Origin: Halichondria panicea
Taxonomy: Eukaryota > Porifera > Demospongiae > Suberitida > Halichondriidae
Assembly (NCBI RefSeq): GCF_963675165.1
Contig: NC_087390.1
Span: 4,597,301-4,661,300, forward strand
Length of the DNA stretch: 64,000 bases
Reading direction: 5' to 3'
Shown here piece after piece: positions 6,964-52,592 of this stretch. The notes beneath the pieces were generated by a model, which was given only the letters and a program-made list of their open reading frames with translations, did no database searches and was not told where the DNA came from. A program made the translations under genes and the position numbers. Each line of letters starts with the position of its first letter. Positions within the stretch are counted from its first letter, which is position 1.

Positions 6964-7076
6964 TGTTTATTGCTGTTGTACTACAGCAATCAATTAGTCT
7001 CGGGATCAGATAAAAATAACCGCCTTCAGTTTTATCATGCACATAACGATACTGAGTGCTATGAATAACGACCTAC

Positions 7077-8068: not shown

Positions 8069-11000
8069 TTAGGTTTCTCTATGTAACATAAAAGACAGCC
8101 ATGGGTTAGTGCTTTTCAATAGTCCACTAGTAGGAGCTACATGTTCTCCAGTTGGAATAGTGTTTCGAAAGTGAAAGGACACAACGTAATCCATTCCTCG
8201 CCCGCTGGCCTTCTGAATTGATATAATAAAAGGTTCTGAGGGATGAAAGATGTAAGCTATAAGGCGACGAGAAAGGGGCTGGGTGTTGCCACGGAGAGCA
8301 GTATCCAGCTGGAAGCTTGAGTAACCTCCATCACGACAGAAGAACCTGTAGGTGGAAGAAAGGGGGGTTAATAGCATTGCCATAATTGTCAATCAATGTT
8401 TAGAGCTACATGTACAATAGTAAACCAGTAGGTTGATTGGCAGTGCTTGATGGATTTGAGAATAGGGAGAGGGATTGGAAACGGAAGTTACCTTGAATTA
8501 TATCCGCATTACGTGTAATCGAGGCTGTGTATCTAACGTTAGTGAAATCTAGGCTAGATAGTACCTTGACTGTCTGCTACTATATTTGTACTAAAACTTG
8601 CATTTCCAACTGACACTTGAGACCATATGGGACACATACACCGATGAGTTGCACAGTCTTAGCTATATTCATAAAGATCTCATAGCGTGACGAACAACTC
8701 TAGCTATCTTCACAAAAGTCAAAAATGTATTTTTCTTTTCCAACTGATGCTCACCACTAGGGGGCATAAGAGTGACGTTTTAGGGGGGCTGTGAATAGCT
8801 TGTAGTGATCATAATTCATGAAACATAGTTTCCTGCGTGTTGAGCAACCGTAACACGGATTGACATCAAAGGCTCTCTAGTGCCATGCTGTAAAATTTCA
8901 CGTGATGCTACTTCCGTTTCCAATCCCTCTCCCTATTCAATCTATGATTTGAGTCAGTATGGTGTGGAGTATTCAATTTGAAACTGATGGGGGCTAGAAG
9001 TATAATACAATACAGAGGATTTCAGGTTGGTTGGCAAAAGTTAAAAGTTGAAGTGCAGTCAACCATGACCACTAATTGCATTAGTAGGAAAAAACATGCA
9101 GTGTGTTGAGTGCACTTCAACTCTGAAATCCTCTGTACATGTAGTACAGCTGTTTGCATAGACCTTGCAAAATACTAGATCAGCTCACTGCATTACCACA
9201 AAACCACAAAATCACCACACAATGTTGCTATGCAAACAACATGCATGCAGTCCTGAGCAACGATGGTTTCTAGAACTTGTATAACGGGTACTTTTTGAGT
9301 AGACCCTCGAAAAATACCTGCTATATAAGGTGGTACAAGAGTAGATGCTTTTATCTACTCTTGGTGGTATGGAAACGAGGTTTGAAGTTTCAGGCTGAAG
9401 AATGCATGTTAGTACGAAGTACCTTAAACACTAAACAGATCACAAAATATTGTTTGGTGCTAATCTAGTAGAGAAATATGTTCGGACTTGATGGTCAAAA
9501 CCGGTATACCGCAGTGAGCAAATTAGTAGGCTCTTTAGCGTAACAATTTTTCGTACAGCACAAGTCTCAGCATAAGGCGTTGGTAGACCATTCTCTACTT
9601 CAAATCCTCCCGGTTCTATGACTCTCCATGTAGTCTATTTCTTGAAGTCATGCACCATTGCTCACTTTTTATGAATGTGAATGTACCCAATACTATTTGT
9701 TTGCATAGCAACATTGTATGGTGGTTTTGTGGTAATGCAGTGAATGATTTAGTATTTTGCAAGGTCTATGCAAACAGCTGTACACCTTTGCAAGAGTTCA
9801 TTAGCCAACTCCTGATGTTAGGTACACTTTGCCCAGGGGTTCTGTCTAGACAAGTCATTTTTGGACAAAACAAACTTTGGGGAGACAGTACATGTACATG
9901 ACAACTGTGAAAAGTAAACATTAAGTCACAAGTGAAAATCAAAAGGACAGTAAAAACTTGAGCACACCTGCAACTGGGTGACTCTTAATCAGTATGCGCT
10001 ACAGCATGCACACACCAAGATAGGAGAGGAAGAGGGATTGGTAACAGAAGCAGATTGGTAACAGAAGCAGTGCACGCGATGATTATACATTGAATCTGCA
10101 GAAAGCCTTGGGCAAAAGTTGTGTTTCCTCGAGACATCATCTCTTAGCAATTTATAACATGCCTATTCTGTGAGCCACGTGTAGTACTTGCTAATGACTG
10201 ACCACACCCAGTAAAAAGAGACATTCCAGTAAAGAGATAAGCGCATAATTATATTGCTGCTATTATTTTAGTCTTGTATTGATGGCCTATTTATACACAC
10301 AGTGCATAACAAACTACAAAAGCAAATATGCTCAGTCTGTGCAACTCACTCATATTTAAAGGTCTATACCTATTTTAGCAGTTATAACCAGCACCAGGAG
10401 CACATGATGTAGAAATAGGCCATAACCGGGCCACGCCTATCTACAGCTTTGGCTTGTTGACACAGCCTCGATTAAACCACAGGTGCATGTTACTCGAGGG
10501 TACTTCCGTTACCAATCTATGGACTCACATACTGTATAGCGGGTTATTTTCGTATGGTGGAAATTTTCAGTATTGTAGAGCATCATACGAAAATTAAACT
10601 ACGAAATTTTTCTACCGCAATACGTTCAACGTCACTATCCTGAGCTATACCAATATTTAAAATACTTCAATTGGGTAGTTCATACAAAAATGTGCACCAA
10701 CGTAAATTACCCGAGGTGCTATAAGGTAGCTAACTCACTTGACAGGAATATCTCCACAAGGTTTTGGTCGCTCAATAGCAGACACCCACTTGTCATCATA
10801 ACTGAACAATGATAGATCGAGGTACGGGCTACTAGACAAACACTGTGACGACACCGGCAACTGGCCCAACAGCCTGCGAGTGGCTTCTTTATGACCTCCA
10901 AACTTTGCACTTGTGATCGTTTGCTTGAACTTCTGGTGCAAAGCCCTAGCGTACGGGTTGTTGGCTACCGAGCTGACATCTCTCGATAGAGGGTGAGAAA

Positions 11001-28513: not shown

Positions 28514-30821
28514 TTAATAAGCAAGATCTGTATCCACAGATTCTGAAACATATCCATCAAGAACGCTAAAAAAATAATACAATATTTTTATTATACTCAA
28601 ATAAATAGCCCTTGTTATATTGCTAATTGGCTCTAAATAAATAAAAATAAAAATATAAATAATAATACCCCCAACACACTCCAATATTTTTTTCCAGTGT
28701 GTGCAGCATCCCCTTTTCTTCCCCAAATTAACTATTGATGCAGTAGCAGAGCGTACGGAGGGTGGGTTCCTGCAGCACTTCACTAAGCTCACAACACCAA
28801 ACAAAATTAGTGCCGTGCCAAGTATTGCACCCGCTAATAATGTACTTTCACCCATTAACCATGGGATAAATTTTGCTAGTTGTATCAGACGCCAACTTGA
28901 AAGTTCGCATTCATGGAAATTTTCGGTAAGTTTTTCAAAAAATAACATTTGAAGGTTATCGGATGTATAGTTATAATCGGTGATGACTGCTTTCTGAATT
29001 AAATCAAATGTATTTTGATGTTTCAATGCGGTCAAATTTTTGCAGTCAAGCAGTGAATCACAGAAATCTTTCGTACGAACGATGTTTGCACATTTGGAAG
29101 CTCCGATGTCGACAAACACTTTCCACAATATTCTGGCACAGATGACATCAGACGAGTAAGTGCAAACTGTTTTAAACATCGATAGCTCTTTGTAAGAGTT
29201 GTGAGCTGCAAATAATATTCGTCCTGCCACAAATGGATCACTATTGAGTAGATCCTCTTGAATTAAATAGCTGACAGCTAACACCTTGTCCACTTCTAGA
29301 GGATCATTTTTTATCTCCGAAAGAACTGTTTGAAAATGGTCTATATTGAGACGTTCTAAATATTTGATAGTAAAGTCCTCCTTATCATTTAACTTCTCAG
29401 ACTGTCCATATTGACGTTTCAGAAGTTGCATTAAATAGTTAGAATAAAAATCAATGAATTTCCTTCTAAAACCCTCCCAATATTTGTATTCAACCATTTC
29501 ATCAAGATACTTCCTGATTAATTTGTGCATTGAATGTCTTGTTTCATCACCAATGTAAATCTCCTCAATCAACGACTTGCGAATTACATCGTCAACACAT
29601 TCAATATCCACAACTGATCCTAGAACCGTCTCTTCCATTTTATAGCTGGTTGGTCCTGGAAATTGGCTAAAAAGTCTACTGCATGTTTGAGTACGTTTGT
29701 CCAAATGTTTGTAAGCAATATCCATAACTGTACGGAATTTTTCTTCCTCAATGGTCACTTTGTTTGACAAAATTCGGACTGGCTGATCATTTAAATCTTT
29801 TAGCAGAGACCCAAAGTTGTCTATTCCTCTTTCCTGAAGCAGCCTTCCCACAACTTTAAGTGCTAACGGACATTGGCCAACAGCAATTGAGAGCTGGTCT
29901 GCTTGCTCGTCATTGATAATGGGCACATAATACTTCAACATTGCTCTAGAATCCTCTGCCGACAATTCCTTGATGTGTAAAGCAAAAAAACTTGTACTTG
30001 TAAAGAAAAGTTTCTCTTGGGAAACTATTACAATGGTCAATGTTGTGTTATGTTCGTTCAAATGATCGTTTATAATGTTGGTGAAATGTTCGTAATCGTT
30101 ATGCAGGATATGGTCACAGTTGTCTAATATAAGAATTGAACGCTGTTTTAATTCTCTGATCCACTGGCATAAACTCATATCATTACTCGATGTAGTGCTT
30201 TCTTGTGGTTCTTTCACGTTAGTGAGTGATTTCATACTTGGGGAGCCTTCCATTTTGGATTTAGAACAAATATATTCTGATTGACTAGCTGTTTCAGTGT
30301 CCACGTACCGAACAATCTTAATAATGTCTGTGTGTTTCTCCAACAACATTTCACCAAGTCTAATAGCTAGCCGTGATTTCCCAAAAGCCGGTGGACCATT
30401 TATATTGGTGACACGAATAGAATTACGAAGAGTGTGTTTAATGAGCGTTCTCAAGTAATCAGCTCGACCAATAAATGGTTCGCTCATTTTCGGAAGATTT
30501 TGCTGGATAGATTCTCTGTATTCTTGTAGATCAGTAGAGCTTTGTATGCTAATTCCGTCCACTTTGGGTTTGTTGATGTTCACAGAAGCTGGCGGATACC
30601 AAAACAAGTACAGTCCAATTCCTAAACACAGTAGAGCAACCAGTATAGCTGTGTTCCGTTTAGAAATTCCTATGAGAGATTGTGGTAGTAATTACAGAGT
30701 ATCATAGCCTGGGTGTGCGTGTGCGACAAGTATTACTGCACATCACAATGGATGGCATGTGCATGTGCATGTGTATCGATAGTGACCAACACATACTTAT
30801 AGCGATAATAAAACCTAGCAT
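28514..30821 (-). CDS. Membrane-anchored NB-ARC (STAND) ATPase, locus 1
   Basis: Main exon 28514-30669. A short alternative first exon (ATG at 30821, donor ATAA|GTATGT after 30797) gives 726 aa; splicing from the CARD-like exon at 30880-31248 would give 832 aa, and both fit phase 1. Order: transmembrane helix (NTAILVALLCLGIGLYLF); FIGR linker; Walker A GPPAFGKS; Walker B SILILDNCDH; sensor-type VIVSQEKLF; GLPL-type GQCPLALKVVG; winged-helix end MHKLIRKYL (MHD-like); helical region; two or more C-terminal hydrophobic segments (about ORF residues 600-690). NB-ARC ATPases are nucleotide switches of APAF1/NLR/plant R proteins. No LRR, WD40 or TPR region is recognisable. Paralogous to 43165-45726. 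Confidence 0.85.
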
Positions 30822-30879
30822 GACACCAAGTTAGTAAAGCATGTTTGAATGAACACACCCACTTTTCATTCGGTAACGT

Positions 30880-31248
30880 TCATTTGACTAGTTTATTCTT
30901 CTCACCATTGACATTGGCTTTGGATTGCTGCACATCAATTTTAGTTGACTGTTTTTTCAGCCTTTGCCCAATCGTACTGAATGCTGGTTCATCTTCCAGA
31001 ATTGTAAGAAAGTCTTCAAAAGCACTTCTGTCTACTTTAATCCTGTTATTAATGGCATCCAGAAAAATCTGTGTCCTCTCTCCTTCAGTGAGACTCACAA
31101 GCCGACTTGTGACTTGGCTTTTCACTTCTTCTGAGATGAGTCCTTTTGAGAAAGCTTTATCTGTTAGATCACCTACTCCACTCTTTAGGACATCCTTCAG
31201 ATCACTGTATAATGCCTGAAAAGCACTGACCTCTGCCTCAGATGCCAT
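30880..31248 (-). CDS. CARD/death-fold-like domain, probable first exon of the locus-1 NB-ARC gene
   Basis: ORF of 122 aa from ATG 31248. Helical pattern: FQALYSDLKDVLKSGV, TDKAFSKGLISEEVKSQV, ERTQIFLDAINNRI, SAFEDFLTILEDEPAF, resembling a six-helix CARD; it is 35-45% identical by eye to the ORF at 51084-51455. The unspliced ORF stops at 30880, 58 bp before the NB-ARC ATG. A donor (CAATG|GTGAGAAG) after 30906 leaves phase 1, which fits the acceptor CTCATAG|GAATT at 30670/30669 exactly, with a 236-nt intron. CARDs mediate homotypic assembly of innate immune complexes; CARD identity is structural guesswork from the pattern. Confidence 0.65.
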   Translation of the reverse strand: MASEAEVSAFQALYSDLKDVLKSGVGDLTDKAFSKGLISEEVKSQVTSRLVSLTEGERTQIFLDAINNRIKVDRSAFEDFLTILEDEPAFSTIGQRLKKQSTKIDVQQSKANVNGEKNKLVK

Positions 31249-31427
31249 CGTTTACTTAGAAATCTCTGCAAAAAAAGGAGGGAGGGTCTCAGATCTGCTA
31301 GGGTTAAGGGTTCGGGTTGATAATGACCTCTGAAAGGGGTCAATCAATCGACCCCAGCCTCACTTGACTTTACTTGCACTGTACAGTACTGTGGGAGCTC
31401 TGCTGTGGGAGATTTGTTTTCGGTGAG

Positions 31428-33917
31428 ATGAAGGATCAGTCAGCAGACAGCACACAAGATAAATTGGATCCATACCTCATTCAGAACAAGGAGAGGCATT
31501 CTACTTCTAGCAGCAATACTATTGCCAATAGCTCAACTTTCTGGGTTGGTTTCTTACTGGTGCAAGCTAGTCTCCTAGTATGTCTGGCCAGTCTGCTCAG
31601 TACTGGTTACATTGGCAACCTGCAAGGGTGTGTGAAGGATGGCAGTGATTGGGGGGCTAATGTCAACATTGACGGCCACACTGTGTCAGTGCTTAGCTGG
31701 TTCGATGATCAGCTCAAGTCGGATAATATCAAGAACAACCTGCAGTAAGTAAAATCAGAGTTTTAATATCTTTGATAGAATTTTGTCATAGATCTCACTT
31801 GTTGAAATAAAAGCGTTGAAGTAGATGTTGTGTATGCATACACTGCACTGTATTGCACTTCTTCTAAGCCTCTCTCTAAAGTGGCATTCTGAATCTATCT
31901 TTATGGGTTCGTTCACATGTACAGTTAACATGGCTACGCAAGGGTCTAAAGGAGTTGGCGCAGTATAATTATGCACAGCTTACAGTAGGGTATCCTATAT
32001 ATCTCTGCTCGCAGCACCTTGACTGAGAAGCCTCACATTGGAGGCAGTGAAGAGAACCATCAGCTAGCTGTGATGATCTACCAACAGTGGGAAGGATTCA
32101 TGTTCGACAAAGTGGAACTAGTCAACTATTCGGTTCTGCTCAGCTACCCCAACACGAGCAATCCCAACGTGCTGCAATTGTTGAATGCTAAGAATGAACT
32201 ACTCTACAATTCTCATTCGAAACAGGAGCCACCTTTGACCCCTGGTGAAGACGACCCCAATGTGGCTCCACCTTTCAATGCTTACTCTGGAAGTGGGAAA
32301 ACTTCAGTAAGTCTACAAATTTTGTAGCAGCCAATGGCGGGGAGTGTTGCAATTAGTAACTGTTGTTATCCGAGGCCGTGCCGCGGCCAGCGGGTACAGT
32401 AGTTATCTTGTTTGTTTGTCTGTTTGTAATTTATGAGTCTGCTTACCTGGATGCCATAGCACTGTGTTTACAGCATGGATAGATAGCCTTCACACTTCCA
32501 GTTATTAGTTTTAACAATGGCAGATTTCGATGTTAAAGCAAGCAAAATCTAAGAAGCTTGAAGTTGCACGTTGGCCTCTATAGCTTCTACGTGCGTCTTT
32601 TTCTCGAGGTGCGTGTTTACGATTAGCCTCGATCCCAGCCTCTCTCACTAGAAGGCCTGGTAACCATCGTTTGCGCGTGGGTGGATTCAGTAAATAATAT
32701 TGTTAGTAAAACTGTTTGTAATCAATTAACCTTTTGTACTATGGTCACCCACGCGGTTGATTAAACTATTAGTGTCAAGAGAGAGAAATCGCCATCACAA
32801 CTCTAGGCTCATACGGGGAGCACTGATCCTACTGAGATGGCATCAAACAAGCGTCTGGAAGCAAGTACATGTAGACTTGCCAGAGCCGGTCTATATACTG
32901 ACAGAAAAACACCCATCACTCTACCACAGTACAAAAGAAGACAAAACCTGACTTTTCAACACTGAAGAGAGTGTGAGCAAAAGCAGAAGAGAAGTAGAAG
33001 CCATCACAACAGAACTAGTCACAAAACTAGTCACTAGTCTATGCCATAAATGTTATAAGTATTTATTAAAACTGCTATGATTTGTGCAATGACATCATTG
33101 CAAACAATAAAATGCACTTACCGTAAGACCTCGATTTAAGGCGACCCTCTAAATATGCGACACTTGGACATTTCGCCCATATAGCACCATATAAATTCAT
33201 TTTTTTTGTGTACATTAAAACTCAACTTTCGCAAAACGTAATTATTTAAAAGTGTCGCCTTAAATCGAGGTTTTACGGTACTAAGATATTTGGTCACCCA
33301 GATTTTGGGTGATTGAGCGCATGCGCAAACAGTGGATACCAGGCCTTCTTTTCCAGAAAGAGGCCTGGATTCGAGGCTATGTATCGATCTGCATGCGATA
33401 GGTCTAAATAATGTATTTTGGATTGTATCACTATAAGTATAGCATGACACACTGTTTGTAGGGTCCACTGGTGTATGTGAACTATGGCACTATCAACGAT
33501 TTCCTGTATCTGACACAAAACCTCTCTCTGGACCTATCCAACCACATCTGTATGGTGCGGTATGGCCAGATCTTCAGGGGAGATAAAGTAAGTGTATAAT
33601 CATGTAAATTTTGGAAACAGGGTCTCCTTGAGCTTATGTGTAAATTACTTAACAATGACATTGAAACACGTTGCTTGTGCTGTCCTTATATAATTATATA
33701 GGCTCGCCTGGCTCAACATTTCAACTGCAGTGGTCTGCTCATCTACTCTGATCCGCAAGACTATGCGCCCAAGGGCGTGCCAGTATACCCTGATGGACCT
33801 AGTCTACCACCAGGGGGCGTACAGAGGGGTACGCTGAAAATAATCCTGGAGACCCCCTTACTCCCGATGTCCCTGCAATTGGTAAGTGTGTATTCAGCAA
33901 GCACTTGTGGCGCAATT

Positions 33918-33950
<33 letters not shown>

Positions 33951-35156
33951 CTGGTTCAAGCCCAGCCAGGTGCGAGTAATTCTTTTTGGTCAAATATAAC
34001 TATCAACAAGATGCTCAATACAGCATTCCCGCCTTGCCTTTACATAACGGACACGATAACTCATACATTAGGGAATCGGGAATGGTCATGAATCTTTGAA
34101 TCTTTCCAGAAAGATTGTCAGTGTTTTTTGTCGCTTTCGAAGATCGCCTACGCTATCTATACAATAGGCGCATGTAAAAAATCACTCTTCCCACAGACTA
34201 TTGACTCCTAGCTACGTAGCTTGCTTGCAGCTGCACTTAGAAGAAATCAGTTTGGTTGATATAATTGTGATATCGATATTTGCTCTGACAGCATCCCCTC
34301 AAATCTAGTGCATTTGATACAAACTCACCTGTTCTTGTGTAGAGGAGCCCGCTGCAGCTGTATAGCTAGGGCAACACAAATTGTTGCTACATGTAGTATT
34401 CCAGCCAAGTGTGGGTTAGGACATAGTTACATAAACTGGGTTAGGACCTAGTTACATAAACTGGGTCAGGACATAGTTGCATAAACTGGGCTACGAGTTT
34501 GGGTTGAATTAGCTATATAGCCACGTAAAGTGTAGAACCTTCATGGTTAGGTGAGGTTAATAATGGTCACAGTGCATACACTGTGGTTGCTTAGTGATAT
34601 ATTGGTGGTCCCCTTAGCAGTTATTTAATCCATGAAAGATAGTGTAGTTAATGTGATTAACAATAAGGTAGATCTACTGTGATGCGTTAGGTTAAGCATG
34701 ATGTAAATCAACAAAAGTGGGCGTAGCCAAACATTTTGCAACGCGCTTACGTGCACCTAAATCTCCCCCCCCCCCCCCTCCACAATTTTTTACTAGATGA
34801 AACCCTGCCCGTGCGTGCGCAGCAGGGGTAGAGTGATTGGTGCATGTATATGGACACAAAAATGAGATGTTTGAGCGATCTAGACATGTAGTACTAATGT
34901 GATGATATGTCATTATTCTACAACATTTTTGGAGGGACTATATACGAGGTATATAGTTGTTTGCCTTTCATTATTAGGTCGATCAGCAGCTAACGTCTCA
35001 TTTTTGTGTACACACAAACAAAGCACCACACACACACACACCGCACGCACGCACGCACACACGCACACACACACACCAATCACTCTATTGCTGCTGCACA
35101 CGCACAGGACATAATGTTTACTATCATCATTAGTCACCAGCACTTGTGGCGCAATT

Positions 35157-35189
<33 letters not shown>

Positions 35190-38100
35190 CTGGTTCAAGC
35201 CCAGCCAGGTGCGAGTTATTTTTAGTAAATCACTCAATCTGGAATGTCCTCGAGCACTAGGTTTAGGCTATTAACCAAAAGATTTCTGGATGAGAGAAAG
35301 CTTTCCAATTTTTTATTCTTTCTGTCACACTTGCAATGGTTAATTTCAGGGGCTTTACCCCCCTCCTCCTTGGATTTGGTTTGCCCCTTCTTAATTTAAA
35401 CATGGTATCAACATTGCCCCCCGGGGCCCCCTTAAATTTGGAGTTTCAGAATTTTGCCCCTCTTGGTAACCTGAACCCTGGACTAGCACTGAGGCATTTT
35501 AATTTTACTTCTTTTCAGAGGGAATGTATCGTCGGCCTTACAGTGAAGTGATAGATGAGGAGTTAGTTCCCCGGATACCAGTGCAGCCAATATCTTATGG
35601 AGATGCCGCTCACTTCATGAGGTAGACGTGAACACTCAACAGTGAAAGTTCTGTCTGATAATTCGTATTCATTTTTTTAAGGCGACTAGAAAATAGTGAA
35701 CATAGGCACAGAATGTTGTGTATTAGGTTCCTGCATTATTAGTAATTATAATAGATCTATAAATTATGTTAACTTCTTCTTTAATGGTTCCATAAAGAGA
35801 TGTTTTGTGTATGCTAATTGTAGCCAACTCGAAGATTACACTCCACCTCCTGAATGGATTGGACAGCTGTCCGGAATTAGCTACAAAATCATGCAGAATT
35901 CCAAAAATACCAAGTAAGTTTTTGTGATTGATGCAAATAACGTGTTACTTGGTGACATTGTTTCGTCAGTGTGACCTGTCTCCAAGTGAACAACTATCAG
36001 GAACAGAGAACCATCTACAATGTCATAGCCACCATCTATGGTCGAGTAGAGCCAGGTGAGGGACTGAACGTGTATGCGTTGTTGTAGCTGGATTTGTTTT
36101 TGGTGGCTTCACAGTCACAGAACGAGATTTACAGTTTGCTGCTAAGTGCTGTCAAAAGCTAATACATGCAACTTCATTACAGTTTGTCGCACATGGTTTA
36201 TAGACCTACGTTTGCAATACACATGACATAGTACACGTATGCCTTGCAAACCCGTTTAAAATATTTACAGACAGACAGGTGATCTTGGGTAACCATAGAG
36301 ACGCCTGGGTGTTTGGAGCAGTGGATCCCAACTCAGCAACGGCTGTTCTCATGGAGATGGCTAGAACACTCGGTATACTGAGGCAAAACAGTAAGTCGTT
36401 AATTTCATAAGCTGAGAGAATGCAGTGGCTATAACATTATACTTGCTATTTTGATTGCGGTCAGGTAAAGGCTCGGTATGGTCTGTGTGTATGGTTCCAC
36501 TAAAAGTGAAGTTAGTGGACTATTTAACAATTAAATTGGTTTTGACGTCTGCTCTAAGCTTTGCGAGACCCTCGACTGATGCTGTGAGAAGCATTTAATT
36601 TATTGTGTGAGACATTTTTGTACCAAGTTCATTGAATACAAACTCCCCCCTTCCCTACTTCTCCCCCCTCTCCCCTAGAATGGAGACCCGGTCGTACCCT
36701 TATCCTGTGCAGCTGGGATGCTGAGGAACCGATGTTAGTGGGTTCAACAGAGTGGGTCGAGGTGAGGAGGTATAGTGAAGCCAGCTAGCCATTGTGAGTA
36801 CCATATTCTGCTATCTGAGTACCATACAGTGCATCCAGTCTAGAGAGTAGAATACAAAAATTGGTGAGTAGTTGTACTTAAATGTATCTCAAGATTGGAA
36901 CAAAGTGTGCTGATACCATTGTAAAGGTAAAAGAATAAGCTACAACATGATTCAAAAATATTTCCCCAAAAGTTGTTGTAGTAGGAAATAATTTTAGGAG
37001 ATAATGGGGGTGATCGTAAAAAAATGTACGTAACATCAATTATCTCTGGAACTAAAGTATTTTTGGAAACATTTTTCTTATCAAAAGTTAGACAATTTAT
37101 TCAAGCTTACTCCGTGTAATTTTTAGACCTTAGCCGTGAGATTTTCTTCAAATCTCTCCCTAACCGAAACGGCACTAAAAACTAGCAATTTTGAGCACTG
37201 CGGAGGATGTATAGATATTTAAGTAACATCGAATCTTTCATAAGATAGCCAAACTATCTATAGATGTTGTGACAAAGTTCCAAACCTTAGCCGGAAACCG
37301 TTGGCCTATTCTCTCCCTAACCGATTACCCACTATAACAATTGGGTACTGTTTTATTAATCACCACAAACCCACCACCTTACGTTGTCATGGAAATTATT
37401 TTGGATAGGTTTTAGCTTATTCATTCGCTTACACAATGGTATCAGCAGATTTTCTTAGAAATGTTCCAATCATAAGATATTTACATTTAAGTACAACTAC
37501 TCACACAGTTTTGGTATTCTACTCTTTAGACTGGATGCACTGTATTTATGACTGCTTGGTATATTGCTGTTGCAATCAATCCCTGTACAGTGACACCCCT
37601 TATCTATGTTCATAACATTGGGTGGGTTGCTATGCTACATACATGCATTTAAAGGCTTTTGGTTGCTATAGAGATGGGATATTTCCTCCTATTAGGACAA
37701 AGGAAAGTTACTGGGGGCCAACGCTCTTGCTTATCTGAATGTGGACCTTTCTGTGGAAGGTGAGCACATAATTATCTGTGCATTAATTTTTGTAAATCAC
37801 TAGGTCAATTTTTTTAAAGTCAGCATATAATATGCCAGCGTGCCAACTTCTAGCCCCTGATATTTTGGGAATCCTTCACTCTTGCAGTAGTTTGTTATCC
37901 AACACTATAAATTAAGGCACAATGCGTTCAATACTTTTGTTTCTTATGCTCCAACGACAGTTAGCACTCGAGAAATCTAGCTTTTTACCAACCTTTGGCA
38001 CTTTATATAATTATACTCTATTATTATTTGTATATCCATATCATGCAGGCAACCAGTACCTGAAGGCTCAGGCTAGCCCTGTCTTGTTCAATACACTGTG

Positions 38101-39487
38101 GCAAGCAGCAACGCTGGTCAAGTGTCCCGATGAAAAGTTCACCACTGTCTATGATCAGTGGATGCACTTCACATCCAAGAACTACAATGGAACTACTAGA
38201 CCACTGTGAGTGTGGTTCAAATAACTACTGTATCATAACGTACATTGTTTTGCACGAAAAATCGTTGCAAATGAGAACATAAACTAACTTTTGCGATTTT
38301 GCAAGGATTCTGAAGTATCGTATAGGTCGTTGCGATTTATAAACATTAATCGCTAAGTCATTAGAACTCGCAAAGTTCGAATACGTATGTTTGATCCTCA
38401 AAAAATATTGTTGTAGGTGGTAATACAGTACCTGATTTAATGCCAATGTCTGCCCTCAAAAATAGAGTGGGCCAGTACTATACTGCTACCATATATTATT
38501 AGCGTATGCACTTTAGTCTAATGGGGTCAATAGCAGCTAGAGCTCCAGTATGCGCTTAAATTTGAGGATATGTGAAGTCATTTTCGAGCCCTACCTAGTA
38601 ACGGATGTCCTTGTGACGAGTGATGAATCGATGCCTAGCTAGCTGCGTTGGAAGCGAGCGAGCTAAAAACATTCATTGACCAAGAACTGGAACAAAAAGG
38701 ATTTAAGTCTCAGCCTGTTTAGACAAATAAAAGCGTGCCCAACAATGGATATCACAAGCTATAATTATAGCTACCGTGCACTGTACGGGCTAGCTAGCTC
38801 AAGCAAGTTTAAATTCCCACTCAATTCTTTCGCATATTGGAAAAGCACCTAAATTTGATGCAGTTAAGATGCTACAATCGAGTAGAGCTAATAATCCAGT
38901 ATGTTGATTTATTTGGTACTTCAGTGGAATCACAGGCAGGCATATTTGGGGGAGCTATATTTTGGCCATTTACAAAAGCGACCTTTGTTGAAAGGTGGTT
39001 TTGTACACCTGTGGGACCCGGGTGCAGTGACAATTGGCCATTCTTTTGGTTTGGCTGTTCAATAGTTTATTAGCCGATTATATGCCATGACATCACGTAG
39101 CGGTTACACCCCCAGAGCCATATTGATAATTTACTGCTATCCATTTTTTTTCCCTTCTCTCTGTCATCATTGCAGCATATTTGACCTATCCCCCAGAGCC
39201 ATATTGATAATTTACTGCTATCACTTCCCTCTGTCATCATTGCAGCATATTTGACCTATCCCCCAGATCGAGCCATATTGATAATTTACTGCTATCCATT
39301 TCTTTCCCTTCTCTCTGTCATTGCAGCATATTTGACCTATCCTCGGGAACTGACTACACAGCGTTTCTACAAAAACTCGGAATATCATGTATATCGATGG
39401 CTTACGTAAGTTTTGCTCTATGTCCCAAATACTGACCCAAAATAATACTGAGCCCATAAGTTGTCAACCAGCACTTGTGGCGCAATT

Positions 39488-39520
<33 letters not shown>

Positions 39521-42213
39521 CTGGTTCAAGCCCAGCCAGGTGCGAGTTATTTTTTGCATAGGATTTCATCTGGGGTCTGTCCCTGTGTATGATTAGTAAA
39601 AGCAAAAGTTGGTGCCAATCCTACCTATAGTTTAAAGCCTACTGAATGAACGCTGATGTCTCAATGGAAAGCTACTAGCTATTGCTAATACGCACAGATA
39701 TCACATTAATTTTGCTGCAGGAAATGATCGACCATGATTGATCCTAAAAATGATGCCAAAACGTCCAATAATTGGCTGCTGCAATAGCAGAGCCTTGCAG
39801 GCTTGCAGCTTCACTCTTGCAGCTACCAATAGCTAGCGTTCTGGTGCAGAGCTATCTAGAGTAGCAACATTCCATATAAGTTTTGCTACGCACTCTTCTG
39901 AAAAGGCTGCAATGGCATTCCAAGTAAGCAAAACTAGGCATAACTCGAAAACCAAGCATTATTTTTCAAATCCACGAATCAAAATCATGACTAGAAATTA
40001 TAGACTTGCACTTCATTGATCCTTCAAGCAGCTGTAGCAGTCTAGACTCACACACACAAACACACTACCGTATACCTCGCTACAATAATTACTAGGGATA
40101 CACTAGGGTGCAACCTCGCTACGCATATTCATCAGATACTGTTGGGTGTGTCAGAGGTAGCTGGGCGGAGCTAGAATGATTGTAGGTAATGAACGAAATG
40201 TCACGAATCGTCAATTTAAGAACTAGCTTATGAGCAGAACGCTGCCTTTTGAGCTGTAGAATGGAGCTCAAGTGTCCTCAGTACAATCACTAATACGTCC
40301 TCTAACTTTTGAAGTAGAACCGTTACAGTCTGCAGCAGCCAGAGCCACTAGTTCGATTGAGCAGTGTCCACCGTTATCCTTTTTTTCCCGTCCAAAATCT
40401 CAACATGACCTGATTAGAGCCTCGCTTCGCTCGGAATAATAACTCAGGAAGTTCTTAAAACTATTTGCCAAATTTAATGATATGACATTATAGCAAACAC
40501 CTATGTACACGCACATACTCATAAAGTGTCCACGTGGTTGAAAGCGTTTTGCGCTGTTGATTAGCAGAAGCAGCTAAACATTTCAGATTAGCGTAGCTTG
40601 CTACCTTGTTGTCCGCTGATGCATTATGTCCAAGACTAGTAGAGCTCTAGACATCGTTTGCATTTATTGATGGGCGTGGCTCATTGAAAGTCATTCTGGT
40701 ATCCGAATATTTCTGCCATCCGGGTGTTTGGATAATTGAGGCTCAACTGTATATAGTATCACTCTCCTGCATACTGTACAGGAGAATGCGACTGACTATG
40801 CAGTCTACCATTCAGTCCACGACAACTTCTACTGGATGTCTCATTTCGGGGACCCTGACTTCACCTATCACGTTACTATGGGCCTTGTCTGGATGAAGAC
40901 TGCGATACTGTTGACTACTACTCCATTACCATCGTATGACCCCAGGCGCTAGGCACTTTGGATTGAGAGTGAGGGAGATTTTCAACAGTCTGGAAGAGCA
41001 CTATGGAAGCACCCTGAAGGCACAGAACATCTCTTTGGGTATGTTTGATAAGGGTAGCCTCCTACATGTATATTAATGATTGTGTAAAAGAGAGCAACTT
41101 TACTAAAATTAATATCATAACTATTATGTCAATCAAAAGCATAATTAGCTCAAGTTTGTATGATTTATTTTCAGGCTACCTAAACGCCTCAGTGTCGGAC
41201 TTTAGTACTGGTTGTGTGAGAATGTGGGAGGATGTACAGAGAGTGGTTCAAGATGGCCCTCCATCAGAGAACATTGTACGCATCATCATTGACAAGTACA
41301 TGAACGTAGAGAGAGCCTTCATACATCCAGAAGGACTGCCTGGAAGATCTTACTTCAAGTGAGTTTGTGTGTGTATGCAGGCTATACTTATGCCTCAGTG
41401 CGCATGCGCAAGCTCAGTATACAGTAGTGTGTTTGTGTGTGTGTCTGTCTGTGTGTGTGTCTGTGTAGACTGCTACAGCTGCTCAAGGATCAATGAAGTA
41501 CAAGTAAGAGTTTCTAGTCGTGTTTTCTTGATATTTCGTGGATTTGCAAAATAATGTTTCGTCCTTGAGTTATGCCTACTTGGAATGCGATTGCAGCATT
41601 TTCGAGTGCGTAGCAAAACTTGTCCATGCATGGAGTGTTGCTGCTCTACTTAGTAGTTAGCTCTGCACTAGAACGCTAACTGCAAGAGTGAGAAGAGAGC
41701 TGCAAGGCTCTAGCTCTGCTGATATACAGCCAACTTGAACTTTTGGCATCAATCGTTCGATTCTGGATTCATGCTGTAAAATGTTCATCGTGATATATTA
41801 TGTGTACATGTATATTAGTTTTTATTTTAGTAGCTTTGTTATGTAGCTTTGGCACCTCCACCGAGGCATCGGCATCAGCACCCGCGGTGCTTTCATTATT
41901 ATAACAAATCGACTCTCTTTAATTTTTAGTCTGTGCATATATCTGTGCATATATTCATTTTCTGAAACAATCGTTTGAGTATTTACAAATATTGTACTCC
42001 TGCAGACACGTCGTCTTTGCTCCAAGCTCAGTCAACAGTTATGGCAGTTCCTTGTTCCCTGGAATCTCAGACACAATCTTTGAGGCCACTCAGTCGGGAA
42101 AGGAGGAGGACTGGAATAAAGTACGGAGACAGATGGATATCGTCAGGAACCATCTAAGATATGCTACCATGATTATAAACGAACCCAGTTTAGCGTATCA
42201 TTTGGATTCGTAA
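31428..42213 (+). CDS. FOLH1: Glutamate carboxypeptidase II / NAALADase homologue (M28B peptidase), fifteen exons
   Basis: Exons 31428-31744, 32015-32306, 33462-33587, 33702-33881, 35519-35621, 35824-35913, 35970-36055, 36271-36390, 36679-36761, 37696-37759, 38049-38205, 39327-39405, 40782-41038, 41175-41358, 42006-42213; about 781 aa (human GCPII 750). Type II membrane protein: cytosolic N-terminus, helix [20 protein letters not shown], then PA-type insert, M28 catalytic domain and dimerisation domain. All five zinc ligands and the catalytic Glu are present with the spacing of human GCPII: His407, Asp417, Glu454-Glu455, Asp483, His576. It removes C-terminal glutamate from peptides or folates (family knowledge). 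Two compensating single-base frameshifts are needed, in exon 4 (about 33840) and exon 13 (about 40935). NAALAD2/NAALADL1 are equally possible names. Confidence 0.85.
32622..33383. repeat. Nested MITE pair (family E host, family C insert) in peptidase intron 2
   Basis: TTAGCCTCGATCCCAGCC...AAGGCCTGGTA on the left and TACCAGGCCTT...AGGCCTGGATTCGAGGCTA on the right form the outer element. A second TIR element at 33119-33281 (CCGTAAGACCTCGATTTAAG / TAAATCGAGGTTTTACGG) lies inside it. Confidence 0.6.
33119..33281. repeat. MITE, family C, 163 bp, in peptidase intron 2
   Basis: Perfect-looking ends: ACCGTAAGACCTCGATTTAA at the left and its near complement at the right, with TCTAAATATGCGACACTT inside. 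Related to 18469-18800. Confidence 0.8.
33901..33974 (+). tRNA. tRNA-Asn (GTT), copy 2, in peptidase intron 4
   Basis: 74-nt sequence identical to the other three copies. It starts only 19 nt after the exon-4 boundary. The T run (CTTTTT) follows the 3' end after about 8 nt. Confidence 0.88.
34411..34492. repeat. Tandem repeat, about 29 bp x 3
   Basis: Three units of GGGTTAGGACATAGTTACAT AAACT type (second has CCTAG, third GTCAGG and TTGC) lie in peptidase intron 4. Confidence 0.75.
34989..35094. repeat. CA-rich microsatellite
   Basis: Impure (CA)n and (GCAC)n runs in peptidase intron 4. The ORFs with long His/Thr runs in this stretch come from the repeat. Confidence 0.8.
35140..35213 (+). 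tRNA. tRNA-Asn (GTT), copy 3, in peptidase intron 4
   Basis: 74-nt sequence identical to the other copies, with intact boxes A and B. The 3' flank GAGTTATTTTT is shared with copy 4. Confidence 0.88.
36827..37553. repeat. Long terminal-inverted-repeat element in peptidase intron 9 (about 725 bp)
   Basis: Arms of roughly 165 bp: TACAGTGCATCCAGTCTAGAG at about 36827 and the inverse TCTTTAGACTGGATGCACTGTA at about 37553. Pairing continues inward (AGTAGTTGTACTTAAATGTA against TACATTTAAGTACAACTACT). No ORF is inside. Confidence 0.8.
39108..39345 (+). repeat. Triplicated 3' splice site of peptidase exon 12
   Basis: Three tandem units of 70-81 bp, each with AGCCATATTGATAATTTACT, a pyrimidine tract, TTGCAG and the first 17 nt of exon 12 (CATATTTGACCTATCC). 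Acceptors fall at 39175/39176, 39245/39246 and 39326/39327. Only the third continues into the conserved exon. Confidence 0.9.
39471..39544 (+). tRNA. tRNA-Asn (GTT), copy 4, in peptidase intron 12
   Basis: 74-nt sequence identical to the other copies, 66 nt after the exon-12 boundary. The upstream flank GTTGTCAACCA resembles GTTATCAACCA before copy 1. Confidence 0.88.
39770..40085 (-). repeat. Dispersed repeat (family F), inverted copy, in peptidase intron 12
   Basis: Reverse complement of the family seen at 41388-41760: CTTGCAGCTTCACTCTTGCA, GTTTTGCTACGCACTCTTC, GGCATAACTCGAAAACCAAG and a CA-rich end, in matching order. Confidence 0.65.
41388..41760 (+). repeat. Dispersed repeat (family F) in peptidase intron 14
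   Basis: GCGCATGCGCAAGCTCAGTA, a TG microsatellite, AAGAGTTTCTAGTCGTGTTT, GAGTGCGTAGCAAAACTTGT and GAGTGAGAAGAGAGCTGCAA are all shared with the other copies. Confidence 0.65.
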
Positions 42214-43164: not shown

Positions 43165-45726
43165 TTAATGTAGAGTGTTTATGTCTTGTTCTTCACTAAC
43201 AGTTGATAGAAACGTATGAGCAACATCTGCGATGTTCAGCTTGTCAATAGTAAATAGAACACACAGTGAGAGGCCTTGCAAAGCACCTGTTAGTATGATT
43301 AAAAATATTGGAAGTAGTATAGCCACCTTTAGTAAAACATAAATTTTTCGGTCTGGGAAAAGTTGCTGTTGATCACTTGAGCTGAATCGCTGAAATAGCC
43401 GAAATATGTATAAAGGCATAAAGAGTAGAATAAGATTGTGGATAAGAGATACAAGAAAAAACAAAGGAGAGATCACAAAATGAAATGTGCAAGGACTTAT
43501 CAAAGACGTTCTTAACGACACGAGCACACAAAACAAGCCACTGCAAAACTCAATAATGGTACTTGAAAGGAAATGTGGTAGAAATACGGTGAATGAAAAA
43601 TATAGAAGTAAAAACTTTGAGATGCTGACTTTTAGCTCAAAATGACTGTAACTGCAGACATCAAAAGAAGAATTGATTGCAGCTTGCACAAAGTAGTCAA
43701 TAAACTTAGCTGTGAAGAAAGTTATTGCTAAATAACCAAGTAACTTCACAATTATAAATGGCAGCAGCTCACTGAGAACCGTTTCTCGAGGATGATAAAG
43801 AAAGTCTTTAAGAAAAAGAAGTATAAATATTCCGGTAAATATATAAGACTCATGCATACCACATAAAGTGATGCCTCTTTGAATATTGTCATAGAGCGGT
43901 CTTTCAGATGATTTAGCCACAATAACATTAATCGTGTTCTCGTACATGAAAGAGTGTAAATTATCACATGCGAAAAGTACCGAACAGAATGTTCCGTCAT
44001 CAAACCATGTCAAACTAGGGGAGAGTATATTCGTGAGAAACAGCGAAACATCTGAAAAATGTGAGGCAGGTGCATTGCAAGCTGGTACACCCAAGTTAGA
44101 AACTGTAGACCACAGTATGTTCGCACAGACTTTTTGTGATGTAATTGAGCAAAGCTTTGCAAACACAGACACATTCTTGTAAGAATCATAAGCTTCTAGA
44201 AATATTTCTTGTGTAAGAGTATTCGTAAATTTTTCTTGAATTACCAACCCTAGAGCAATTGCTGTATTCGCTTTTAACTCATTATCCTTATCAGTATACA
44301 CAACTGCTGAACCAAAATATTCAATATTATGCGTCTCTAAGTAGAAAATGGTGTACAGTTCTTCGTCACTTATCTGGTAGTCTGCATAGGTTCGTTTCAT
44401 CACATTTTTTAAATACTCAGAATAGTGTCTAATATATGACGTATTAAACTGTTGTGATTGTGGATAAGCAAGATAAACTGATTTGAAATAGTCTCGGATT
44501 AGTTTGTGCATACTGTGCCTAGGCTTCTTATTTATAAGGATCTCCTCAACAAATGACATTCTTACAACATCACGAATACAAGATGAATTGATAAGTCGAG
44601 ACAAAATTTGCTCTTCCATGCCGTATCCTGTTGATCCTGGAAATAGGCTGAGCAAATGTGCACATTTTTGTGTTTGTTCATTCATTTGTCTGTATGAATA
44701 ATCCATTATTGCTCGAAATTTCTCTTCCTCTACAGTCATACTTTCAGATATTGTATCTACAACTCGTTCTTTCAGATCACTTAACAGAGATTCAACATAG
44801 TTCCTACCATTGATGGACAGGAATTTTCCAACCACTTTCAAAGCCAGCGGACAATGGCCAACAGCAAAAGCTAGCTCATCTGATTCTTGATCAGAAAGAT
44901 CAGCTACATAGTCTTGTAACATTTTTCTGGAGTGTTCTTGGCTAAATTCTCCAATATTTACAGAGACAAATCCATAGTCCAATAAAAACAATTTTTCTTG
45001 ACTTGTTAAAATAATAGTTATGAATGGGTTGTTGAAATGGTTTTTAATGATGGTCAAGAACTTCTTCCTATTGTTACTACGTAGAATGTGATCACAGTTG
45101 TCCAAAATCAGTACAGTTCTTTTCTCTAATTTCTGGAACCAGTCACACAAATTATCATTATCAGCCAAGCCATTGTTATTACTACCTGACGACATATCTA
45201 AATTAACCTGGACATGCGTACGCATGGAAAAGTCAAAATTTCGGTGAAATCGTTTGGAGATACAAAGAAACCAAGATGATCTGGTGCTTTCAGTGTCTAT
45301 ATATCGCACATTGGAAATATATTCACGGAGCTCGTGTCCTAATTTAATAGCCATAGTCGACTTACCAAAAGCCGGTGGACCATTGATGCTAATGATTCGT
45401 GCAACGTTTGATAGAATTTCATCTTTCAGCTTCTTTAATTCATTTACTCGACCATAAAAAGGTCCATTAATTTCGGGAAGATTTTGCTGTGGTAAAGGTT
45501 CGTAGTATAGGTCTAAGTCACGTTTCATTTCTTCTTTGATCATTTCCATTTCACTTACACAAAAGTTTGGCTGGTTTTGGGTCGGTAGGCCACTGTACAT
45601 GTATATATAAAGGACTAATCCACAAACGATAGCTACAGTGACAGCGATGATAGCTAAAGTGACAGTGATCATAGTTTTGCAACATCTGCCTGCATTTGCA
45701 TTTGGAGAGAAATAATAAACTGTCAT
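43165..45726 (-). CDS. Membrane-anchored NB-ARC (STAND) ATPase, locus 2
   Basis: 853 aa if started at ATG 45726; 961 aa if spliced from the CARD-like exon at 51095-51455 to the acceptor at 45690/45689 (AAATGCAG|GC), both phase 1. In the unspliced numbering: transmembrane helix about 20-46; FYGR linker about 90; Walker A GPPAFGKS 116-123; Walker B VLILDN 205-210 followed by CDH; TSQEKLF; GHCPLALKVVG; MHKLIRDYF; a helical region; then about six hydrophobic helices from about 640 to 840. The NB-ARC part is clearly paralogous to 28514-30669, but the C-terminal membrane module is longer. An ATP-driven switch fixed in a membrane is inferred. It lies downstream of the peptidase gene, tail to tail. 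Confidence 0.85.
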   Translation of the reverse strand: MTVYYFSPNANAGRCCKTMITVTLAIIAVTVAIVCGLVLYIYMYSGLPTQNQPNFCVSEMEMIKEEMKRDLDLYYEPLPQQNLPEINGPFYGRVNELKKLKDEILSNVARIISINGPPAFGKSTMAIKLGHELREYISNVRYIDTESTRSSWFLCISKRFHRNFDFSMRTHVQVNLDMSSGSNNNGLADNDNLCDWFQKLEKRTVLILDNCDHILRSNNRKKFLTIIKNHFNNPFITIILTSQEKLFLLDYGFVSVNIGEFSQEHSRKMLQDYVADLSDQESDELAFAVGHCPLALKVVGKFLSINGRNYVESLLSDLKERVVDTISESMTVEEEKFRAIMDYSYRQMNEQTQKCAHLLSLFPGSTGYGMEEQILSRLINSSCIRDVVRMSFVEEILINKKPRHSMHKLIRDYFKSVYLAYPQSQQFNTSYIRHYSEYLKNVMKRTYADYQISDEELYTIFYLETHNIEYFGSAVVYTDKDNELKANTAIALGLVIQEKFTNTLTQEIFLEAYDSYKNVSVFAKLCSITSQKVCANILWSTVSNLGVPACNAPASHFSDVSLFLTNILSPSLTWFDDGTFCSVLFACDNLHSFMYENTINVIVAKSSERPLYDNIQRGITLCGMHESYIFTGIFILLFLKDFLYHPRETVLSELLPFIIVKLLGYLAITFFTAKFIDYFVQAAINSSFDVCSYSHFELKVSISKFLLLYFSFTVFLPHFLSSTIIEFCSGLFCVLVSLRTSLISPCTFHFVISPLFFLVSLIHNLILLFMPLYIFRLFQRFSSSDQQQLFPDRKIYVLLKVAILLPIFLIILTGALQGLSLCVLFTIDKLNIADVAHTFLSTVSEEQDINTLH

Positions 45727-46807: not shown

Positions 46808-47010
46808 TCAGTGTGTGCCAGTATATATGTTAATTGGCTTTACGTTGAGGATGTCTGAAACTGACTTCTTTTGACACTCAGAAGTTCTCTTGTAGCTGCG
46901 AACTCCTTCCAAGCTTCGGTGTCCAGTTGTTTCCATTATCATTTGTTCGTCCACTCCAGCGTTGTAGAGTCTAGTAGCAGCAGTTGCACGGAGTATGTAT
47001 TAGAGGTTCA
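46808..47010 (-). pseudogene. Tyrosine recombinase C-terminal fragment (Crypton/DUF3504-like)
   Basis: The minus-strand frame ending at TGA 46808 reads AATRLYNAGVDEQMIMETTG, then HRSLEGVRSYKR. This is the C-terminal signature of tyrosine recombinases (His-Arg, then the nucleophile Tyr), in the form found in Crypton-derived and DUF3504 proteins. An in-frame TAA just upstream and no N-terminal domain show it is broken. A further open stretch on the same strand at 47150-47350 (ELATLSTEQRKEEEL...) may be another part of the same element. Confidence 0.65.
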
Positions 47011-51083: not shown

Positions 51084-51455
51084 CTACAACTTACCTCCAT
51101 GGGGCCTACTGTGTTGTTCCCTGTGAGAGTCATCACTTATTGAACTCATTTCAGAGCGAACCCTAGCCTTCATTCTCTCAGCCAGGTCGACGTAAACATC
51201 AATTTTTATGAGGATATTAGCAAAACGATGATAAGCTTTCGGATTTCGTTGGATTTTATCATGAAGGGAATCAAGTAAGATCCCAGTTCGTTCAGCTTCA
51301 TCAACATTTAAGTACCTGCTGCTCACTTTTCTTTTAGTTTCTTTCGATATGAGTCGTTTGGAGAATGCCTGATCAGTTATGTGTCCTATTTCACTTTGTA
51401 AACCCTCCTTCAGGTCGCTGTAGAGCCCAGTGAAAGCATTTATTTCAGCAGACAT
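51084..51455 (-). CDS. CARD/death-fold-like domain, probable first exon of the locus-2 NB-ARC gene
   Basis: 123-aa ORF from ATG 51455, homologous to 30880-31248 (shared LYSDLK, DQAFSKRLIS against DKAFSKGLIS, ER, LLD). The last codons cover a perfect donor: CATGGAG|GTAAGT after 51095, leaving phase 1, so the stop at 51084 is probably intronic. The next phase-1 acceptor with coding sequence on the minus strand that I can recognise is 45689, at the transmembrane helix of the NB-ARC ORF; the implied intron is 5,405 nt and is filled with transposon debris. The divergent neighbour is a broken peptidase copy, as at locus 1. Whether this domain also exists as a stand-alone short protein cannot be decided here. 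Confidence 0.65.
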   Translation of the reverse strand: MSAEINAFTGLYSDLKEGLQSEIGHITDQAFSKRLISKETKRKVSSRYLNVDEAERTGILLDSLHDKIQRNPKAYHRFANILIKIDVYVDLAERMKARVRSEMSSISDDSHREQHSRPHGGKL

Positions 51456-51689
51456 GTTAGAAAAGGGGGGTTAAGGTTGACTTCTTGACTTGAGATCAGA
51501 GGAGGTACGAGATATTTTACTAGAGTGGGGTGCAGTGGTACGTGTCAAGTGTCTTAAGGCTAGGGTTCGGGTCGATAATGTAGCACACGGATTATTGACC
51601 TCTGAAAGGGGGTCGGTCAATCAATCGACCCCGGCCTCACTTGTTGCACACTGCTGTGTGGGAGATTTGTGAGATCAGTCAGCAAACTA

Positions 51690-52592
51690 CAGCATGCACA
51701 TACCTCATTCAGAACAAGGAGAGGCATTCTAGCAGCAATAGCTCTCAACTTTCTGGCCTTGGGTTGGTTTCTTACTTGTGCAGGCTAGTCTCCTAGTATG
51801 TCTGGCCAGTCTGCTCAGGACTGGTTACACTGGCAACCTAGTACATCTACCTGCAAGGGTGTGTGAAGGATGGCAGTGATTGGGGGGCTAATGTCACCAT
51901 TGACGGCCACACTGTGTCAGTGCTTAGCTGGTTCGATGATCAGCTCAAGTCGGATAATATCAAGAACAACCTGCAGTAAGCAACTGTAAGTAAAATCAGA
52001 GTTTTGGTACAATTAATAATTTTGTCATAGATTTCACTTGTTGAAATAAAGTGTTGAAGTAGATGTTCGGTTAGTGACTTACTTGCATACACTGCACTGT
52101 ATTGCACTTCTTCTGAGCCTCTCTCTGACTCTATAGATCTAAAGTGGCATTCTGAATCTATCTTATGGGTTCGTTCACAGTTAACATGACTACGCAAGGG
52201 TCTAAAGGAGTTAGCACAGTATAATTATGCCACAGCTCACAGTAGGGTATAATTATTTCCAAGCACTGTTATATATATCTGCTCATAATTATATGCAGCA
52301 CCTTGACTGAGGAGCCTCACATGGGAGGCAGTGAAGAGAACCATCAGCTAGCTGTGATGATCTACCAACAGTGGGAAGGATTCATGTTCGACAAAGTGAA
52401 CTAGTCAACTACTCTGTTCTACTCAGCTTCCCCAACAACACAAGCAATCCCAACATGCTGCAATTGTTGAACGCTAAGAATGAACTACTCTACAATTCTC
52501 ACTCGAAACAGGAGCCACCTTTGACCCCTGGTGAAGACGACCCCAACGTGGCTCCATCTTTCAATGCATACTCTGGAAGTGGGAAAACTTCA
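51690..52592 (+). pseudogene. Truncated duplicate of the first two exons of the glutamate carboxypeptidase gene
   Basis: Exon-1-like (about 51690-51974) and exon-2-like (52299-52592) sequences are highly similar to 31520-31744 and 32015-32306, including the splice sites. The start codon is missing: the segment around the ATG at 31428 is deleted, reading GAGATCAGTCAGC. A 1-base deletion near 52399 (GACAAAGTGAACTAG) gives a stop. No later exons are present. The copy keeps the head-to-head arrangement with a CARD-like exon, so the duplication included the shared promoter region. Confidence 0.88.

Follow-up and report, generated by a model that had tools for sequence, protein, structure and literature searches.

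Within a 64,000-nucleotide stretch of contig NC_087390.1 of the sponge Halichondria panicea (hereafter the window), locus 1 is predicted from its sequence to hold a single gene for a membrane-anchored protein in which a CARD, a hydrophobic helix and an NB-ARC-like STAND ATPase follow each other, and which belongs to a family of about ten genes. We consider it probable that the ATPase of this protein acts as an oligomerisation switch that would cluster the CARDs, the CARD itself lying most likely in the cytosol. The order CARD, hydrophobic helix, ATPase is supported by a structure model of the CARD, by profile evidence and by the recurrence of a phase-1 junction at nine loci. Since the succession of CARD exon, phase-1 intron, helix and ATPase is found again in 9/10 paralogous loci, the layout at locus 1 is more than chance. 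In what follows, W1 and W2 are loci 1 and 2 of the window and L001 to L009 are further places of the ATPase in the genome.

Gene model and first domain of locus 1

As read from the sequence, the donor CAATG/GTGAG of W1 leaves 30906 as the final base of the first exon and the acceptor CTCATAG/GAATTT opens the second exon at base 30669. Joining 31248-30906 to 30669-28514 (343 + 2153 bases) in phase 1 gives 832 codons without stop, from the ATG at 31248 to the stop at 28514-28516; the translated join counts 833 residues, the stop-to-stop frame carrying one residue ahead of the Met. An earlier note on this DNA had claimed these splice sites, their phase and the 832-codon open frame, all of which were reproduced from the sequence and the translated join, and the layout that it described (a death-fold-like domain, a membrane helix, an ATPase with four motifs and C-terminal helices) is present in this join. 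When the intron is retained, the CARD frame continues to a TGA at 30880-30882, which yields a CARD of 122 amino acids only.

The structure model and the profile evidence allow us to place the first domain of W1 with confidence in the CARD fold superfamily. In the AlphaFold2 model, for which the two window sequences were the input (predicted local distance difference test, pLDDT, 86.2; predicted template modelling score, pTM, 0.79), the first helix is split as in CARDs, with helices at 4-12 and 14-21 and five more after them, in a six-helix death fold, so that the fold anticipated for this N-terminal domain is the one predicted. Foldseek placed the Apaf CARD at the top (E 0.043, probability 1.00, template modelling score by target 0.83), with nothing as low as E 0.001 and with haemoglobins lower in the ranking at a probability of at most 0.21. 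Alignment of the model to the APAF1 CARD by VIA-align gave 1.9-2.1 Å over 92 residues and a Z of 12.4, to be read with the caution that a chance Z of up to about 13 is possible for helical bundles; among the 50 entries listed, all are proteins with a CARD except one de novo design (7vty).

The profile evidence comes from hhalign, with references restricted to 12 of the 48 CARD matches and 8 of the 148 DEATH matches of the genome, DED and PYD being outside the comparison. The alignment of the CARD-like family, 25 rows drawn from 29 domain stretches (L019, L024, L026 and L030 omitted as near copies or APAF1-like), matched the 12 Pfam-passing CARDs of the same genome with a probability of 95.7 (E 8.7e-9), and the value was 92.0 for the 8 ATPase-linked domains alone and 94.1 for 16 others. 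Against the 8 DEATH domains the same comparisons gave 0.7-1.1 (0.8 for the 25-member family), and a DEATH identity of the first domain was rejected on this profile probability of only 0.7-1.1%. The Pfam CARD profile, PF00619, does not match the W1 domain at E<=1 and its curated cut-off is not reached; at E<=1 it matches 2 of the 25 members of the family (best 1.5e-5), and the CARD exon of L007 is over the cut-off (24.7 vs 23.9), which is a detection threshold and not a definition of the CARD fold. TcaA_2nd, the sole Pfam match of the W1 CARD frame (16.9 bits, cut-off 26), was taken as chance. Sequence searches of the PDB gave nothing useful, the matches being Tweety homologue 2 (0.19-0.25 in E value) and a chain of the Rhs family (0.89).

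ATPase, hydrophobic helices and gene family

Walker A, Walker B, GLPL-like and MHD-like motifs occur in NB-ARC order in W1, and to this extent the NB-ARC domain proposed earlier stands; no Pfam NB-ARC match is listed for the W1 ATPase exon even at E<=1, and the label comes from the relatives. The cut-off of this profile (23.5) is passed by L006 (29.0) and L008 (24.2), W2 (19.9) and L003 (18.6) are below it, and at E<=0.1 none is listed for L001, L004, L005 or the second L007 frame. Because L006 is also over the cut-off for NACHT, AAA, AAA_16, nSTAND3 and NPHP3_N, the placement of the family in one STAND clade is tentative. The Cys of Walker B is kept in 10/10 loci (DNCD, or DDCD in L007) and Lys or Arg stands at the Asp position of MHD in 7/10, both being unusual in NB-ARC. 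Beyond the ATPase, in a loosely aligned region, cysteines are conserved at several sites in 7 to 9 of the 10 loci; they would be compatible with a redox-active compartment as well as with an oxidising one and are proof of neither. Pfam lists no WD40 match for the W1 ATPase exon and no NACHT or LRR match for W1 at E<=1, so that the NACHT and LRR of a strict NLR are not found; the protein may nonetheless work as NLRs do. Among 591 pattern stretches examined for prokaryotic relatives of the ATPase, none encodes a relative.

The helix TAILVALLCLGIGLYLFWY begins directly past the exon join of W1, whose two C-terminal hydrophobic segments reach 1.69 and 2.16 on the Kyte-Doolittle scale; by hydropathy of the gene model alone, a membrane helix and an NTPase are thus found in the same predicted protein. 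A hydrophobic helix (Kyte-Doolittle at least 1.6) precedes the P-loop in 10/10 ATPase loci, the weakest being that of L008, and a CARD followed directly by NB-ARC without a membrane helix, as in APAF1 and CED-4, is not what these loci show. In the nine joined proteins this helix has values of 2.10-3.04 and is negative on the insertion scale in 9/9, and further C-terminal hydrophobic segments occur in 7/10 family members. The controls were 20 of the 102 scored NACHT places (265 candidates), spread over contigs, and when up to 120 open residues ahead of the P-loop were scanned, 0/20 had a helix of at least 1.6 (maximum 1.58). The genome also holds separate APAF1-like loci, L030 and L031; L031 has no hydrophobic stretch before the P-loop, and a stretch at 1.84 in L030, which had looked like a counter-example among the controls, was read as intron since the acceptor after it is present in L031 too, at the same place and in the same phase.

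Searched against the genome (131 Mb, 39 contigs), the W1 ATPase exon gave 11 places including the query, that is 10 substantial loci and one fragment, and with the exons of L006 and L008 as queries nothing was added except L029, a NACHT gene, and one stretch of 31 residues on contig C2. The fragment, L009 (positions 4967-5244 of that place, on C14 some 11 kb beyond the window), is part of a third nearby ATPase copy and is split over two frames. The W1 CARD used as a single query at E<=1 gave 68 places, only three of which lie upstream of family ATPases (W1 itself, W2 and L001). A hidden Markov model (HMM) of 19 CARD-like domains, none near a family ATPase, was independent of the tested exons in sequence only, because these domains had been recruited with the W1 CARD and trimmed with the tested exons included. 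Searched against 2637 frames of at least 35 residues from 16 sources (the window, L001-L009 and L029-L034), it matched an upstream same-strand exon in 8/10 loci (W1, W2 and L001-L006, E 6.5e-24 to 2.7e-7), and its other matches under 1e-4 were L029 and L030, both CARD plus NTPase. With L007, recognised via Pfam CARD, this makes 9/10 loci that have a same-strand CARD exon upstream of the ATPase.

Close to where the CARD frame ends, the top-scoring donor is in phase 1 at 9/9 of these loci, with a tie to a phase-0 site in L006; in the background of 113 other frames with a donor score of at least 6, phases 0, 1 and 2 number 42, 36 and 35. A phase-compatible acceptor lies ahead of the helix in 9/9 loci. 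By a crude pyrimidine count it ranks top in six (in W1 it is the sole one), second in L005 and third in W2, and that of L001, just beyond the scan range, was read by eye and used in the joined translation. The inferred intron measures only 167 bp in L006 and 153 bp in L007, and because of these two lengths the CARD and ATPase exons very probably form a single gene, as far as the sequence can tell. The divergences of CARD and ATPase over 8 loci are correlated, with a Mantel r of 0.891 that rests much on two close pairs (11 of 20000 permutations equally high). Between L004 and L005 the ratio of nonsynonymous to synonymous substitution rates (dN/dS) is 0.24 for the CARD exon and 0.47 for the ATPase exon, which indicates purifying selection on both, and the introns are hardly alignable; between W1 and W2 dS is saturated, so that selection is not measurable.

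Among the other CARD-like genes, L014, L018, L020, L021, L024 and L026 have a CP[YF]CxxC motif downstream, and scanning of L014, L018, L020 and L021 with Pfam gave nothing at E<=0.01. In L023 (positions 849-2300 of that place, on C14), a dynamin-family GTPase and a CARD-like domain share one frame.

Table 1. Coordinates of the predicted features of the two window loci
Feature	Position	Strand	Basis
W1 coding exon 1: CARD and K-rich linker, donor CAATG/GTGAG, phase 1	30906..31248	(-)	
W1 CARD, about residues 1-98	30955-31248	(-)	
W1 inferred phase-1 intron, 236 bp	30670..30905	(-)	
W1 coding exon 2: membrane helix, NB-ARC-like STAND ATPase, Cys-containing C-terminal region, C-terminal hydrophobic helices, stop	28514..30669	(-)	
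W1 hydrophobic helix TAILVALLCLGIGLYLFWY, between CARD and ATPase	30596..30652	(-)	Kyte-Doolittle 2.10 over 19, insertion scale
W1 Walker A GPPAFGKS	30374..30397	(-)	motif
W1 Walker B ILILDNCD	30113..30136	(-)	motif
W1 GLPL-like motif GQCPLALKV	29852..29878	(-)	motif
W1 MHD-like motif SMHKLIRKYL, His kept, Asp replaced by Lys	29504..29533	(-)	motif
W1 C-terminal hydrophobic helix 1 LLAGAILGTALILFGVVSL	28784..28840	(-)	hydropathy, insertion scale
W1 C-terminal hydrophobic helix 2 ILECVGGIIIYIFIFIYLE	28631..28687	(-)	hydropathy; insertion score +1.82, so weaker
W2 CARD exon, donor TGGAG/GTAAG, phase 1	51095..51455	(-)	HMM, donor scan
W2 exon: helix, NB-ARC-like ATPase, multi-helix region, acceptor AATGCAG/GCAGA	43165..45689	(-)	Pfam, hydropathy, join

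Topology, proposed mechanism and alternatives

In the 15 residues flanking the helix at either end, the lysines and arginines of the nine joined proteins add up to 34 towards the CARD and 11 towards the ATPase; the CARD flank is the richer one in 8/9, and the two flanks are equal in L007. According to the positive-inside rule, the basic flank of a membrane helix faces the cytosol, and the CARD is therefore predicted to be cytosolic. One helix between CARD and ATPase, if spanning, puts them on opposite sides of the membrane, and the likeliest topology by flanking charge would be receptor-like, with the ATPase across the membrane in the lumen of the endoplasmic reticulum (ER), in an organelle or outside. 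As in APAF1/CED-4 and NLRs, the ATPase would be a switch that oligomerises under the control of nucleotide, and its oligomerisation would cluster the CARDs at the membrane; clustered CARDs could then seed CARD filaments or attract effectors that have a CARD of their own (caspases, kinases or adaptors), leading to cell death or immune signalling. A more specific proposal, which we put forward tentatively, is that these are type-II membrane receptors of an early-branching animal, in which the NB-ARC-like ATPase would sense on the exoplasmic face (outside or in the ER lumen) and the cytosolic CARD would signal.

Several observations weigh against a single gene for a protein anchored in this way. 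NB-ARC ATPases are known from the cytosol, and one elsewhere is unexpected. Sequons past the helix are not enriched in the ten loci (55 seen vs 51.5 expected by composition), and four other STAND or P-loop frames, which include L029, itself possibly a membrane protein, have 41 vs 29.9 expected; since the family shows no enrichment while the comparison frames exceed expectation, sequons give no support to a lumenal ATPase. The helix of L008 reaches only 1.62, the top NACHT control being at 1.58, and scores +0.42 on the insertion scale, and no CARD is found in the 11.7 kb upstream of this locus. The model of the ATPase exon, from two sequences, has a pLDDT of only 36 and was not used. Concerning the linkage of the exons, the single-sequence CARD search recovers only 3/10 upstream exons, the HMM descends from domains recruited with the W1 CARD and trimmed with a profile to which the tested exons had contributed, two close pairs weigh heavily in the Mantel value, and the crude scan ranks other acceptors above those of W2 and L005 and did not reach that of L001. 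Around the helix, L004 and L005 are only 47% identical with a dN/dS of 0.69. The CARD exon of L002/L003 has a dN/dS of 0.97 and the ATPase exon 0.43, for which reason this pair may be decaying, and L002 has an altered Walker A and two TGA codons, L001 one.

Among the alternatives, the one that fares best, unlikely though we judge it, is that the helix is not a constitutive span. The protein would be cytosolic at rest like APAF1, with the helix buried, or inserting only after oligomerisation of the ATPase as an anchor or pore beside the ring, and with CARD and ATPase on the same side; such an insertion has been proposed for the N-terminal segments of plant resistosomes. No ATPase outside the cytosol is required in that case, and the kept nucleotide-binding motifs, the absence of sequon enrichment and the lower conservation of L004/L005 around the helix than elsewhere are all in its favour, but on both scales the hydrophobicity of the helix equals that of ordinary single spans, and the extra C-terminal segments in 7/10 would already put those members in the membrane. 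This alternative and the membrane-anchored protein that we prefer would have in common a membrane-linked STAND switch bringing CARDs together.

A stable span of reverse topology, with the ATPase in the cytosol and the CARD lumenal or outside, would keep the ATPase with cytosolic nucleotide, but it appears improbable, the charge bias running opposite in 8/9 members; moreover, a CARD outside the cytosol is not known to have a partner. We find it quite improbable, too, that W1 comprises two genes, a stand-alone 122-residue CARD gene and a helix-ATPase gene starting within or past the intron. The CARD frame does read past the donor to a stop, so that intron retention yields a stand-alone CARD, and L008 has a helix and ATPase with the CARD missing upstream; but this division was rejected as the principal explanation because the phase-1 junction recurs with a same-strand CARD exon in 9/10 loci and because the inferred introns of 167 and 153 bp offer little space for a 3' end plus a promoter, and the correlated divergence of CARD and ATPase also speaks against it. 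Finally, some relatives look decayed (L002 with its changed Walker A and two TGA, L001 with one TGA, the fragment L009), but the frame of W1 is free of internal stops, its four ATPase motifs are all present and its splice sites are usable, which makes a decayed copy the least credible of these explanations.

Known systems, genomic setting and significance

In most descriptions, the STAND immune switches of animals are proteins of the cytosol. Like APAF1 and CED-4, W1 has a CARD and then an NB-ARC-type STAND ATPase, and its CARD model is nearest to the APAF1 CARD; unlike them, it has a hydrophobic helix separating the two domains and no WD40 match listed. MAVS also brings a CARD to the membrane, but this protein is tail-anchored and without ATPase. 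In the same genome, L029 (positions 720-8488 of that place, on C17) presents a like order in a NACHT-LRR gene, that is a CARD exon with a phase-1 donor of 9/9 consensus, a borderline helix before the NTPase, NACHT and LRR; it differs from W1 by these NACHT and LRR domains, by its weaker helix (Kyte-Doolittle 1.61, insertion scale 0.0) and by an inferred intron of nearly 4 kb with several possible acceptors.

Several membrane-bound relatives in kind are in print, and the following comparisons hold for the parts of these sources that were available. Anthozoan NLRs are likewise STAND receptor-like proteins with N-terminal membrane helices, but these helices, 3-5 in number, are clustered N-terminally in NACHT-defined proteins, and a CARD before the helices is not reported in the accessible part (PMC5094078). 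The sea cucumber proteins AjNLR-new and AjNLRC4 combine NACHT and membrane helices, and in AjNLR-new the NACHT is, so its authors argue, extracellular; as membrane NLRs with the NTPase and its partner domain on opposite faces these proteins resemble the arrangement proposed for W1, and they differ by having Ig instead of CARD and NACHT instead of an NB-ARC-like ATPase, the Ig of AjNLR-new lying within two membrane helices (PMC13133943). From sponges, too, NLR genes are reported for which membrane helices are predicted, and microbial patterns induce one of these genes; they share this feature with W1 but are bona fide NLRs, for which the accessible text does not state the order with respect to a CARD (PMC12909245; PMC6208332). 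In oyster proteins with an ectodomain, a membrane helix, DED and TRADD-N, a membrane helix is linked to a death fold as in W1, but DED and TRADD-N are C-terminal of the helix with no NB-ARC between (PMC8195603). The earlier note had held a membrane-tethered form with the anchor between CARD and ATPase to be unusual. Membrane NLRs as such are known from anthozoans, sponges and sea cucumber; CARD, helix and NB-ARC in succession were not found in the literature searched, a set of mostly open papers, partly available, that has the early sponge NLR survey (Yuen et al. 2014) outside. Because membrane NLRs are already in print, the W1 family is not wholly new in kind; as far as this literature goes, it is a variant of membrane NLR-like proteins in which the new element is the order of CARD, helix and NB-ARC-like ATPase.

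A divergent frame has its first ATG about 180 bp away from the ATG of the W1 CARD. The divergent gene (31368-42210, + strand), whose frames match Peptidase M28 (below cut-off) and the transferrin-receptor dimerisation domain TFR_dimer (over cut-off), is one that we take to be FOLH1/NAALAD-like. Since parts of its 5' frame recur beside W2 (51599-51976, pieces of 97.6, 87.5 and 39.6% identity), W1 and W2 look like a segmental duplication, which suggests that the gene pair, possibly sharing a promoter region, was duplicated. The inferred 5.4-kb intron of W2 contains a tyrosine recombinase (Phage_integrase) fragment at 46811-46999 (- strand), probably from a transposon. Elsewhere in the window, 1005-4634 (+ strand) is a 1209-residue frame with a Chlam_PMP repeat match and, by eye, hydrophobic stretches towards its C-terminus. 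The genome as a whole has many NACHT and DEATH matches, in keeping with a sponge.

Because most members of this CARD subfamily go unrecognised by Pfam, such genes may be overlooked in surveys built on its matches. If the type-II arrangement is true, the part across the membrane would be a STAND switch, not an LRR ectodomain, and it would be wired directly to death-fold signalling. A conditional membrane element has been proposed for plant resistosomes, and the recurrent family described here poses a testable choice between an NB-ARC-like switch lying across the membrane from its CARD and a conditional membrane helix. Either option bears on early animal evolution, through the linkage of membrane sensing with apoptosome-type signalling.

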